36,646 nucleotides of DNA from Chromatiales bacterium. GTDB taxonomy: Bacteria > Pseudomonadota > Gammaproteobacteria > SZUA-152. Positions 4,708-15,423 of the stretch are shown piece after piece. Numbering within the stretch: position 1 is the stretch's first letter; each line of letters opens with the position of its first letter. Where the stretch lies: NCBI GenBank assembly GCA_026982475.1, contig JALSHB010000223.1, positions 1 to 36,646 of the forward strand, read 5' to 3'. The position numbers and the translations under genes are program-made. The notes beneath the pieces were generated by a model. That model was given only the letters and a program-made list of their open reading frames with translations. It had not been told where the DNA came from and ran no database searches.

Positions 4708-5823
4708 ATGAGCAACGCCACGATGACCAGCAACGTGACTTACCGCCACCTCGACAAGGCCGAAAAGGCCAAGGCCCGCCAGGCCATCACGACCCATGTG
4801 GACAAGGACCTGGCGCCACTGCTGCAGCACTTCGACAACGAGCTGGTGCGCCTGCATGGCCTGGTGGAACGGCATACCAAGCGGCGTCTGTACCGCACCT
4901 CGCTGCGGCTCCAGCTGCCGCGCAAGGTACTGGCGGCGCAGGAGGAAGGGGAAGACATCGAGCTGGTGCTGCGCGATGCCTTCGCCGAACTGGCGCGTCA
5001 GCTGAAGAAGTACAAGAGCCGGCTCAACAACGAGCCCCTCTGGCAGCGCCCGGCGCGGCGGCGCCAGCTCCGCGAGCTTGTCAAGGGCGGAGACCGCACG
5101 GCGGAACAGCAGGCCCTGTTCCGCGACCTCATCAAATCCCACCTCAAGGGACTGTACAACTTCGTGCGCCGCGAGATCGCCTATCTCACCGCCTCCGGCG
5201 AACTCCTGCCCGGCCAGGTGACGCCGGACGATGTGGTCGACGACGTGGTGGTGCGCGCCTACGCGCAGCAGTCGCAACAGCCGGCCAGCCTGGCCCTGGA
5301 ACACTGGTTGCGCAAACTGGCCCTGGAGGTGCTGGACGAACAGGTCGCCCGCCGCCTGCCGTCGGCGTGCCTGGTGTCGCTGGAGACCCCGGTGGAGAGC
5401 GAGATCGAGGAAGACGACGAACAGCTCTACGAGTATTACCAGCCCGACGAGGCCCTGCGCCTGGAAGACCTCATCGTCTCCCCCGAGGCCAGCGCGCCGG
5501 AAAGCGCCCTGGCGCGCTATGAGCTGGCCCTGCGCAGCCAGCAGCTGCTGGCCTGGCTGCCGCGACCGTGGCGACAGGTGGTGGTGCTGGCGGACGTCGA
5601 CGGACTCAGCGATGAAGAGATCGCCGCCGTGCTGGGTATCCCCGTCGCCATGGTGGCCAGCCTGCGTCAGTTCGCCGAGGCCTACCTGCGCACCAAACTG
5701 CGCGACGGCGGCTATGCGGCACCGGAAGAGGGCGAGGCGCCCGAGGCCGGCTGGGTGCTGGACCCGCTGACCATCGACCTGCCGGGCGAGGTGGAGGAGG
5801 AGATCCTCGCCAAGTTTGCCTGA
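4708..5823 (+). CDS. fusion of HPF/RaiA ribosome-hibernation domain with sigma-70-like regions 2 and 4
   Basis: A 371-residue chimera. Residues about 8-110 resemble the hibernation promoting factor fold, which binds the 30S decoding region in stationary phase. The segment around 64-106, ending FAELARQLKKYKSRL (92-106), aligns with the HPF strand-helix end (LARQLTKHKDKL in E. coli). Residues about 132-215 look like a sigma region 2 (LYNFVRREIAYL at 149, DDVVDDVVVRAY at 174-185) with an insert. After an acidic linker (about 228-265), residues 281-332 look like ECF region 4 (WLPRPWRQVVVLADVDG, then GLSDEEIAAVLGIPV at 299-313). The recognition helix (AMVASLRQFAEAYLR) lacks the usual basic GTVKSR-type contacts, so promoter binding may be altered or lost. 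AGGGGAG precedes the ATG. The function is inferred: it could link ribosome silencing to transcription. Confidence 0.8.
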   Translation: MSNATMTSNVTYRHLDKAEKAKARQAITTHVDKDLAPLLQHFDNELVRLHGLVERHTKRRLYRTSLRLQLPRKVLAAQEEGEDIELVLRDAFAELARQLKKYKSRLNNEPLWQRPARRRQLRELVKGGDRTAEQQALFRDLIKSHLKGLYNFVRREIAYLTASGELLPGQVTPDDVVDDVVVRAYAQQSQQPASLALEHWLRKLALEVLDEQVARRLPSACLVSLETPVESEIEEDDEQLYEYYQPDEALRLEDLIVSPEASAPESALARYELALRSQQLLAWLPRPWRQVVVLADVDGLSDEEIAAVLGIPVAMVASLRQFAEAYLRTKLRDGGYAAPEEGEAPEAGWVLDPLTIDLPGEVEEEILAKFA

Positions 5824-12315: not shown

Positions 12316-13644
12316 ATGCGTTTCACGGTCGAGGCACTGCGCGACGCACTTCCCACGGACATCGCACCCCGTCGTTACTGGATCGCTTACAGTGGCGGGG
12401 TGGATTCACTGGTGCTGTTGCATGCCCTGGCCGCGTTGCGCGAGCATCTCGGCGCAAGCCGGCTTTGCGTCGCCCACGTCAATCATGGCCTCAGTGAAAA
12501 GGCCGCACAGTGGGCCGAACACTGCGCCCAGCGGTGCGCCGGGCTGGGCCTGCCTTTCACCCTGCGCACGGTAAGCGCTGCGCCGGCCGCTGGTGAGAGC
12601 CCGGAGGCGGCGGCGCGCAACGCCCGTTATCGCGTCCTCGCCGAACTGGTTCAGAGCGGCGATTGCCTGCTCACCGCCCATCATCAGGACGACCAGGCCG
12701 AGACCCTCCTTTTGCAGTTATTGCGTGGCGCCGGTCCCAGGGGGCTGGCCGCCATGCCGGTCCTGTCGGAATTCTCCCGGGGTTGGCACGCGCGTCCCCT
12801 GCTGGGCTTCCGGCGCGAGGACCTGATTGCCTACGCCGAGGCCAGTGGCCTTTCGTGGCTGGAGGATGAAAGCAATTTCGACACCCGCCTGGAACGCAAT
12901 TTTCTGCGTCATGAAATCCTGCCCCGGCTGAAGTCGCACTTCCCGGGCCTGGCCAGCACCCTGTCCCGCAGTGCGCGGCGCTGCGCCGAGGCGGCGGAAA
13001 TTATGCAGGCGCAGGCGCAGGCCGATCTCGCGGCCCTGCAACTGTCGGCGGACGCCCTCTCCGTGAGCGGCCTGCGCGAGCTGGGCGAAGTGCGGGCGCG
13101 CAATGCGTTGCATCACTGGATTCACGCGCGGGCGTTGCCGGCGCCCGCCGAGGCGCAGTTGCTGTTGTTGTGGCGCAGCGTGATCTGCGCCGCGGAGGAT
13201 GCGCAGCCGCTGCTGCAATGGCCGGGCGCGGAGGCGCGGCGTTACCGCGATGCGCTGTATGTCATGCCGCCCTTGCCGGACGTCGAGGCCAGCGTGGACG
13301 ATGCCTGGGATCCGTCCGCGCCGCTGGTCCTGGCGGGGCTCGGCCGCCTGCGGGCGCGGGCGGTGAGGGGGACGGGGGTGGCCGCTGATCGCCTGCGGGG
13401 GAAGACGCTTCGCGTGCGTTTCCGCCGCGGCGGCGAGAGGCTTTGCGTGGCGGGCCGCGCGGGTCATCATGCGCTGAAGAAGCTGTTTCAGGAGGCGGGC
13501 GTACCGCCCTGGTGGCGGGCGCGGACGCCGCTGCTGTTTATCGACGATGAGCTGGTGGCGGTCGTCGGCCACTGGGTGGCCTGTGAATTTGCCGCGCAGG
13601 CCGGGCAGGAGGGTGTCTTGTTTGAGTTAGAGGGCGGTGCATGA
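12316..13644 (+). CDS. tilS: tRNA(Ile)-lysidine synthase
   Basis: This 442-residue PP-loop ATPase attaches lysine to C34 of the CAU-anticodon tRNA-Ile, changing its identity to isoleucine. The ATP-binding loop SGGVDS is at about 29-34 (WIAYSGGVDSLVLLHAL), HVNHGL follows, and TAHHQDDQAETLLLQLLRG is the second signature. The middle domain and the C-terminal substrate-binding domain (LRVRFRRGGERL, ALKKLFQEAGVPPWWR) are present, so it is a full-length long-form TilS like that of E. coli. Its last four bases overlap the start of the cytochrome-SUMF1 gene (ATGA), implying translational coupling with it. Confidence 0.97.
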   Translation: MRFTVEALRDALPTDIAPRRYWIAYSGGVDSLVLLHALAALREHLGASRLCVAHVNHGLSEKAAQWAEHCAQRCAGLGLPFTLRTVSAAPAAGESPEAAARNARYRVLAELVQSGDCLLTAHHQDDQAETLLLQLLRGAGPRGLAAMPVLSEFSRGWHARPLLGFRREDLIAYAEASGLSWLEDESNFDTRLERNFLRHEILPRLKSHFPGLASTLSRSARRCAEAAEIMQAQAQADLAALQLSADALSVSGLRELGEVRARNALHHWIHARALPAPAEAQLLLLWRSVICAAEDAQPLLQWPGAEARRYRDALYVMPPLPDVEASVDDAWDPSAPLVLAGLGRLRARAVRGTGVAADRLRGKTLRVRFRRGGERLCVAGRAGHHALKKLFQEAGVPPWWRARTPLLFIDDELVAVVGHWVACEFAAQAGQEGVLFELEGGA

Positions 13645-14663
13645 ACGGTTTTGCCCGGGTTCTTTTTCTTCTTCTCGTGGGGCTTGCCGTGTCGTGGCAG
13701 GCGCAGGCCGCGGAGGAGGGCTACACCCATTCCGACAGCCAGTGCCTGCGCTGCCACGAGAACAAGCAGGAATTGCAGACGATACTGTTTTCCACCCTCG
13801 ACAGCTGCAACGACTGCCACGGCCAGGGCAAGGCCCTGGGCACGCATCAGGGCGTGGAACTGAAGGCGGTGCAGTCGGCCGTGCCGCGGCCCGACAAGCC
13901 CGTGGCGGCCGATATCGGCATGCAGCTGCCCATGTACCCGCGCTTTTCCCGCCTCGGTGATGCACCCAACGCGATGGTGTTGATTCCCGCCGGCGAGTTT
14001 CTCATGGGCAGCGACGACCGCCTGCCCGACGAGGGGCCGCAGCATCGCGTGTGGCTGGACAGTTATTACATCGACAAATACGAAGTGACCAATCTGCAAT
14101 ACAAGAAATTCAACGATGCGACCCGCCGCCGCTCACCGGCCCACTGGCGCAATCGCACCTTTCCCCGCGGCAAGGCGGATCACCCGGTGACCAATGTCAG
14201 CTGGAACGATGCACGGGCCTATTGCCAATGGGCCGGCAAGCGGCTGCCCACCGATGCCGAATGGGAGAAGGCCGCGCGCGGCACCGATGGCCGCACCTAT
14301 CCCTGGGGCAACGAATTCGACATCGCCCGCGCCAACACCCCGCTGCGCTGGTCGGCCATCGGCAAGCCTGGCGATACCACGCCGGTGGGCGCCTTCGAGG
14401 GCGGCAAGAGCCCCTATGGCGTCTACGACATGTCGGGCAATGTCTGGGAATGGACCGCATCGTGGTATCTTCCCTACCCGGGCAATACCCATGCCTCCGA
14501 GAGTTATGGCGAACGCTACAAGGTGTTGAAGGGCGGCTCCTGGTTCGATTGTTCCTTTTATCGCTGCGGCCTTTCCGCGCCGGTGTTCAATCGTTCCTTC
14601 TTTGCCAAGAACGTCAAGAACGACAGCTTTGGCTTTCGCTGCGCAAAGGACGCTGGCAGGTGA
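13641..14663 (+). CDS. secreted diheme cytochrome c-SUMF1 (FGE-sulfatase) fusion protein
   Basis: A 340-residue exported protein. A signal peptide (residues 1-23, ending AQA) is followed by two c-type heme sites, CLRCH (35-39) and CNDCH (56-60). From about residue 110 a formylglycine-generating-enzyme-like domain follows: IPAGEFLMGSDD, DKYEVTNLQYKKF, PVTNVSWNDARAYCQWAGK, RLPTDAEWEKAARG, YPWGN, VYDMSGNVWEWT, GGSWFDCSFYRCG, GFRCAKD. C304 and C309 keep the Cx4C spacing of the copper-binding pair of aerobic FGE, but lie one residue later after GGS. Many SUMF1 proteins are not formylglycine enzymes, so periplasmic oxidation chemistry or a heme-coupled oxidase role is inference. It overlaps tilS by four bases, which may simply reflect dense packing. 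Confidence 0.9.
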   Translation: MNGFARVLFLLLVGLAVSWQAQAAEEGYTHSDSQCLRCHENKQELQTILFSTLDSCNDCHGQGKALGTHQGVELKAVQSAVPRPDKPVAADIGMQLPMYPRFSRLGDAPNAMVLIPAGEFLMGSDDRLPDEGPQHRVWLDSYYIDKYEVTNLQYKKFNDATRRRSPAHWRNRTFPRGKADHPVTNVSWNDARAYCQWAGKRLPTDAEWEKAARGTDGRTYPWGNEFDIARANTPLRWSAIGKPGDTTPVGAFEGGKSPYGVYDMSGNVWEWTASWYLPYPGNTHASESYGERYKVLKGGSWFDCSFYRCGLSAPVFNRSFFAKNVKNDSFGFRCAKDAGR

Positions 14664-14931: not shown

Positions 14932-15423
14932 ATGACCGATACAGTGAAGAAGAACAAGGTGGTTTCCGTGACCTACAGCATCGTCGATGAGCAGGGGGAG
15001 GTGCTGGAGCAGTCCGATATCCCCGTGGACTACCTGCACGGTGTCGACGGCAAGCTGTTTCCGAAGGTGGAGCAGGCCCTGGAGGGCAGGGCGGTCGGTG
15101 ACAGTGTCGAGGTAACGCTGCCGCCAGACGAGGCCTTCGGCCAGCCCGATCCGGCGCTGATCTTCGTCGACGACCTGCACAATGCGCCGCCGGAATTTCG
15201 AGTCGTGGGTGCAAAACCCAGCTTTGAAAACGCCCAGGGCGAGGCCATCGAGATGACCGTGACCCGGATCGAGGATGGCAAGATCACCATCGACGGCAAC
15301 CATCCCTTCGCCGGCAAGACCCTCACCTTTCACGTCACGGTGATGGCGGTCCGTGACGCCCTGGCCGAAGAGCTTGCCCGGGGCGAGGTGATGCCGGCCT
15401 CGGCGCCGGACGTGATGCACTGA
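14932..15423 (+). CDS. SlyD-like FKBP-type peptidyl-prolyl isomerase
   Basis: A 163-residue cytoplasmic prolyl isomerase/chaperone of the SlyD group. The FKBP half-domain (NKVVSVTYSIVDEQGEVLEQS, YLHGVDGKLFPKVEQALEG, GDSVEVTLPPDEAFGQPD) is interrupted by the insert-in-flap domain (PPEFRVVGAKPSFENAQGEAIEMTVTRI), and the FKBP fold resumes at HPFAGKTLTFHVTVMAVR. The C-terminus is short and lacks the histidine/cysteine-rich metal tail of E. coli SlyD, so a nickel-supply role is less likely. I chose ATG 14932 because the family begins just before this point; a longer frame from 14848 would run into the upstream repeat element. Confidence 0.93.
   Translation: MTDTVKKNKVVSVTYSIVDEQGEVLEQSDIPVDYLHGVDGKLFPKVEQALEGRAVGDSVEVTLPPDEAFGQPDPALIFVDDLHNAPPEFRVVGAKPSFENAQGEAIEMTVTRIEDGKITIDGNHPFAGKTLTFHVTVMAVRDALAEELARGEVMPASAPDVMH

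Follow-up and report, generated by a model that had tools for sequence, protein, structure and literature searches.

Why would a protein apparently destined for export carry two heme-binding motifs on the same chain as a complete formylglycine-generating enzyme (FGE) domain, and what might the hemes do for such a domain? This question is raised by a gene, here called A, on the contig JALSHB010000223.1 of a Chromatiales bacterium (assembly GCA_026982475.1), whose 36,646 nucleotides are referred to below as the window. A preliminary description of the window had proposed a diheme cytochrome c fused to an FGE-like domain, with hemes that could supply or remove electrons. Part of that interpretation is supported here, namely the fusion, the fold and the placement of the cysteine loop; the partner gene B and the link to an oxidase cluster, both described below, had been missed.

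A predicted exported diheme protein with a complete SUMF1 domain

Gene A (13641..14663, + strand) translates into 340 amino acids with no internal stop. Its N-terminus (MNGFARVLFLLLVGLAVSWQAQA), read by eye, resembles a Sec signal peptide of residues 1-23 (13641..13709, +), with predicted cleavage between AQA and AEE. This is followed by a first CxxCH heme site (C35-H39; 13743..13757, +), a second one (C56-H60; 13806..13820, +), a linker, and a SUMF1/FGE domain at residues 110-336 (13968..14648, +), which matches PF03781 over profile positions 3-255 of 255 (E 1.3e-64), that is, the whole domain. The combination of two CxxCH motifs and a complete SUMF1 domain, as first proposed, is thus borne out by the reading frame. 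The minus-strand frames over gene A appear to be simple mirror ORFs that do not constitute a separate family.

The best-scoring cytochrome family for A is Cytochrome_C7, a weak match (E 0.0065, 16.7 bits against a cut-off of 24.8), and the claim of heme binding is therefore based on the conservation of the CxxCH motifs. The export signal and the retention of these motifs in relatives are features of c-type cytochromes. At least two further histidines, putative axial ligands at variable positions, lie ahead of the SUMF1 domain in 67 of the 73 non-redundant A rows among the matches listed.

Gene A belongs to a conserved family

In the window's family, 19 of 24 genomes hold A at E 1e-60 or better. 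The five without it at that threshold (G001, G004, G011, G013 and G019) include two, G001 and G019, that are at least 90% complete, indicating that A can be lost. Across 19 aligned members the residues of both heme sites (C35, C38, H39, C56, C59, H60) and the pair C304/C309 are invariant, and C195 and C334 are likewise invariant.

A wider scan of 84,980 species genomes for DNA encoding GGSW[FW][DN]CSFYxCG yielded at least 117 motif ORFs in at least 115 loci, revealing many further cytochrome-SUMF1 fusions. Among the matches listed, all 100 ORFs with at least 230 amino acids upstream of the motif have exactly two CxxCH motifs, and close homologues devoid of them, which the preliminary description had named as evidence against its proposal, were found neither here nor among the 19 aligned members. 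Fourteen of the remaining 17 listed motif ORFs end at a locus or contig end; in L129, L138 and L150 both CxxCH motifs occur upstream but are separated from the loop by a frame change or a run of N. CxxCH is absent from all 162 other SUMF1 frames of the listed loci, some of them repeated by overlapping loci. Between the heme sites and the loop there are 230 to 280 residues in the matches listed, and the conservation of both implies that the two ends of the protein are maintained together. These data confirm that A is a real conserved family and not an accident. Among the matches listed, 114 loci belong to Pseudomonadota and one to Nitrospinota; most are Gammaproteobacteria metagenome-assembled genomes, with five Nitrosomonadales (including Gallionella) and one Candidatus Tenderia.

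In three loci (L026, L027 and L028, from G010, G007 and G009) A is doubled in tandem, in the order A-B-A-B in G010 and G009. One of the tandem copies has a GGSWF loop and the other a GGSWW loop, as if subfunctions had been split.

The cysteine loop and the predicted fold

The hallmark loop of the family, GGSWFDCSFYRCG, spans residues 298-310 (14532..14570, +) and contains C304 (14550-14552) and C309 (14565-14567). The preliminary description had noted that this Cx4C pair has the spacing of the FGE copper site, shifted by one residue. The pair does lie, invariant, in the loop that holds the copper cysteines of FGE, and the shift depends on where counting begins. From GGS, the cysteines of A stand at +7 and +12 and those of human FGE at +6 and +11, so that the pair is one residue late as proposed. 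GFRC, in turn, is found at +34 from GGS in 115 of the 117 A ORFs among the matches listed (two being not scorable) and at +32 in FGE, and counted from there the pair is one residue early. The loop of A is thus two residues longer than that of human FGE, with the cysteine pair in mid-loop, and a profile alignment of the two loops places the gap arbitrarily. The residue ahead of the second cysteine is R, K, Q or N in A and Tyr in FGE.

W269, S300, C304 and C309 are each present in 73 of 73 non-redundant A rows among the matches listed; these rows were chosen partly by their Cys and Ser letters, and W269 played no part in the choice. In the non-A rows listed, Trp occurs at position 269 in 26 of 76 and Ser at position 300 in 16 of 76. 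By counting, W269 and S300 correspond to human W299 and S333, which we take to be active-site residues of FGE.

An AlphaFold2 model of A, built from 149 rows, reached a pLDDT of 88.5 and a pTM of 0.82. The input comprised the window's mature protein and 148 of the 150 non-redundant rows from the loci, leaving out the partial rows L087:4283-4996 and L162:1-669; cut copies of A without exactly two CxxCH motifs had been removed before this row list was made, whereas the 100/100 census given above is unfiltered. An earlier model, based on 19 rows, was of low quality (pLDDT 58.9) and was discarded. Compared with human Cu(I)-FGE (5ssz), the model gives a Z score of 26.8 and 3.0 A over 224 residues, which supports an FGE fold for the SUMF1 domain of A. 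The weak part of the model is the cysteine loop itself, with a mean pLDDT of about 63 over model residues 281-290 (precursor 304-313). The Foldseek and VIA match lists for A are filled by the SUMF1 domain and therefore bear on that domain rather than on residues 24-85.

A second SUMF1 gene accompanies gene A

In the 90 loci compared among the matches listed, the only constant neighbour of A is gene B, a second exported SUMF1 gene that has no CxxCH and no cysteine pair and whose corresponding loop bears a GHY motif. Of the listed A genes, 89 are followed by 1,200 or more bases of sequence, and in 84 of these a non-A SUMF1 gene in the same orientation lies downstream, no more than 1,600 bases from A and mostly touching it; three of the five without an adjacent B (L057, L096 and L132) resemble the window's own family or genus. 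Among the matches listed, GH[YF] is found in 73 of 74 B rows, where A has its cysteines, and 36 of the 74 have a lipobox-like site, others having a plain signal peptide. A FastTree tree, in which long branches were flagged, places A on one side of a branch and B nearly so, three rows scored as 'other' being GHY variants of B.

Of 274 genomes of the class, 19 contain A (E 1e-95) and 19 contain B (E 1e-80), the two sets being identical. The window's genome itself contains exactly two PF03781 genes, A on contig C223 and B on contig C54. Since A and B occur together in all 19 genomes even when they are not adjacent, they are very probably partners, and we infer physical contact between them.

Genomic setting and co-occurring genes

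Upstream of A in the window lies tilS (12316..13644, +), whose stop overlaps the start of A by 4 bases, an order that is kept in relatives. Downstream is an FKBP-type (SlyD-like) isomerase gene (14932..15423, +), and in most relatives B stands between A and this gene. The arrangement with accA-tilS upstream and slyD downstream is restricted to the window's family, and a conserved operon context for A was rejected, there being no constant neighbour except B. A monoheme cytochrome cluster lies near A in 9 of 90 loci among the matches listed. Downstream of the A-B pair in one locus (L062:1671-3479) we noticed a monoheme cytochrome and an ORF that, judged by eye, encodes a NirK-like copper protein.

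Associations of A with several lifestyle markers were considered and rejected. Reverse dsrA exceeded the cut-off in 87 of the 274 genomes overall and in 4 of the 19 with A, where G056 had a further fragment; cytochrome cd1 gave no match better than 1e-60 in the 19 A genomes (best 7.0e-11); and MtrB/PioB exceeded the cut-off in 3 of 19 A genomes against 2 of 19 chosen without A. The 19 comparison genomes in this last test and in that for ccoN were picked in list order and are not a random sample.

The ccoN search showed that most A genomes hold a divergent CcoN-like gene. With the G263 sequence as query, this divergent cbb3-like oxidase gene was found in 23 of 274 genomes, comprising 17 of the 19 with A and 6 of the 255 without it (Fisher p 3.5e-20, related genomes not being independent). 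Counted by family, it is present in 10 of 11 A families, the family total being taken as about 171. The window's genome and G098 carry A and B in the absence of this gene; in the window's genome canonical ccoN and dsrA are present and the divergent oxidase cluster is absent, and the link to the oxidase is thus not obligatory.

The oxidase cluster of G263 (L212:1291-11396) encodes a two-domain cytochrome c, CcoN-like and FixO-like proteins, small cytochromes, a redoxin and a SUMF1 protein, the latter being a third, membrane-anchored one. Clusters of this type (L212, L213 and L214) are conserved across families. Passages of Eddie et al. 2017 (PMC5371394) describe in Ca. Tenderia electrophaga a Cyc1 region together with complex IV genes of high expression; the L212 cluster resembles these, and the two are presumably the same system.

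The preliminary description had suggested looking for sulfatases; the PF00884 sulfatase family has no match in the window's genome (G000, 100% complete), in its congeners G003 and G006, or in G093 and G098. A PF00884 protein does occur in 21 of 26 A-bearing genomes examined. This family also includes enzymes that need no formylglycine.

Possible function

We propose, with a probability of about 0.4, that A and B form a two-protein periplasmic redox module in which an FGE-type thiolate site, probably occupied by copper, is wired to hemes. According to this reading, A would be exported and would carry two c-type hemes near its N-terminus, and C304 and C309 would provide two thiolates for a metal, most likely Cu(I), where FGE has its copper site. 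B, exported as well and a lipoprotein in about half of cases, would be expected to pair with A. Electrons may then pass, in whichever direction, between the copper-thiolate site and the hemes of A, which would in turn exchange them with the cytochrome c pool that serves a chemolithotrophic respiratory chain in the periplasm. An FGE-like thiol oxidation would be the probable reaction, acting on a substrate other than a PF00884 sulfatase.

In the FGE cycle, as passages of PMC12123546 describe it, a Cu(I) thiolate activates O2, and two oxidising equivalents are kept as a protein Cys sulfenate that must undergo a two-electron reduction in each turnover; the same passages give the physiological reductant as unidentified. 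An attached diheme such as that of A would fill this gap. Because the FGE cycle needs electrons and A combines an FGE-like site with two heme sites in a single polypeptide, a coupling of thiol chemistry to the cytochrome pool is favoured. The proposed module is further supported by the locking together of the two CxxCH motifs with the Cx4C loop, by the strict retention of W269, S300, C304 and C309, by the FGE fold, and by the linkage and co-occurrence of A with B and with the oxidase gene. Against it stand the cysteine pair, one residue out of the FGE register in a longer loop on which the model is least sure, the replacement of the FGE Tyr ahead of the second cysteine, the lack of the oxidase in the window's genome and of A in five family genomes, and the lack of a constant neighbour apart from B. 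The five genomes devoid of PF00884 argue against sulfatases as the client.

A bolder version of the proposed module makes A a self-sufficient FGE-type copper enzyme, in which the hemes supply the two electrons of the cycle and B is a dedicated non-catalytic partner. The pair would then act as a thiol oxygenase linked to O2 and to cytochrome c, serving a non-sulfatase client in iron-/electrode-oxidising and sulfur-oxidising bacteria. We regard this version as unlikely.

The main rival to the redox module is that the SUMF1 domain merely docks a diheme shuttle, whether to B or to a respiratory complex, with C304 and C309 forming a structural disulfide. This non-catalytic role is a serious contender, although we would not quite expect it: the fold hits of A include SUMF1-fold proteins with no redox role (PorK, the major tropism determinant and a Treponema variable protein), A is found with the cbb3-like oxidase cluster, and B is as strictly kept as A with no catalytic-looking residues, yet the retention of the FGE-site Trp, Ser and both cysteines in every listed A row goes beyond what docking would need. 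It is also conceivable that C304 and C309, together with the GHY histidine of B, hold Cu(I) and deliver it to the cbb3-like oxidase, while the hemes maintain the metal in its reduced state. According to passages of PMC12123546, Cu(I) sites with linear bis-thiolate coordination do resemble those of copper chaperones. Copper delivery would suit both the co-occurrence of the oxidase with A and the near-universal GH[YF] of B, but the window's genome and G098 carry A and B without that oxidase. We moreover know of no FGE-type fold that serves as a copper carrier, and consider this role improbable. Lower still do we rate the reading of A as a genuine FGE that serves sulfatases and draws its electrons from its own hemes, which we think very improbable: the fold, the site and the PF00884 proteins of most A-bearing genomes examined would fit it, but the family's absence from five genomes including the complete one of the window, and its inclusion of enzymes independent of formylglycine, speak against it.

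Relation to known systems

A shares with FGE (SUMF1) the fold (Z 26-27), the PF03781 match, the Cx4C pair in the GGS loop, the site Trp and Ser, and a disulfide-type pair (C195/C334). It differs from FGE in its two c-type heme sites, in its longer loop with cysteines out of register, and in the absence of a sulfatase from the window's genome. The best PDB sequence match of A is SUMF2 (pFGE), the human FGE paralogue that lacks catalytic activity, and B may be to A as SUMF2 is to SUMF1: both have the same fold, have lost the site residues and are found beside, or kept with, an active-looking copy. Unlike SUMF2, B has a strict GHY motif of its own, and its pairing with A is putative. The sulfoxide/selenoxide synthases EgtB, SenA and OvoA also have a SUMF1-type C-terminal domain, but this is joined to an iron-binding N-terminal domain where A has its diheme segment, and A scores far below the cut-offs of the full-length EgtB and SenA equivalogs (118.8 of 360 and 111.4 of 420 bits). 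The membrane-anchored SUMF1 protein of the oxidase cluster (L212:10323-11396) resembles A in its PF03781 match, its tie to cytochromes and its occurrence in the same genomes; it differs as a separate family with neither CxxCH nor the Cx4C loop, encoded inside the cluster.

The PMC literature searched gave no description of a fusion between SUMF1/FGE and a c-type cytochrome. The fold and the heme motif are of known kinds, but their fusion, like the A-B unit and the pattern in which it co-occurs with other genes, appears to be undescribed in that literature. With an FGE-like site and two heme motifs on one chain in over 100 copies from at least two phyla, the A family offers a direct place to study how such a site may be wired to a respiratory chain. 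In its strict partnership with B it offers a counterpart, in bacteria, of the SUMF1/SUMF2 pair, and its association with the Cyc1/cbb3-like oxidase cluster suggests a new candidate part in chemolithotrophic electron uptake.

Elsewhere in the window, an ORF of 371 amino acids (4708-5823, +) shows an unusual pairing of an S30AE domain of the ribosome hibernation factor type (residues 22-107) with sigma-70 region 4 (residues 278-323).
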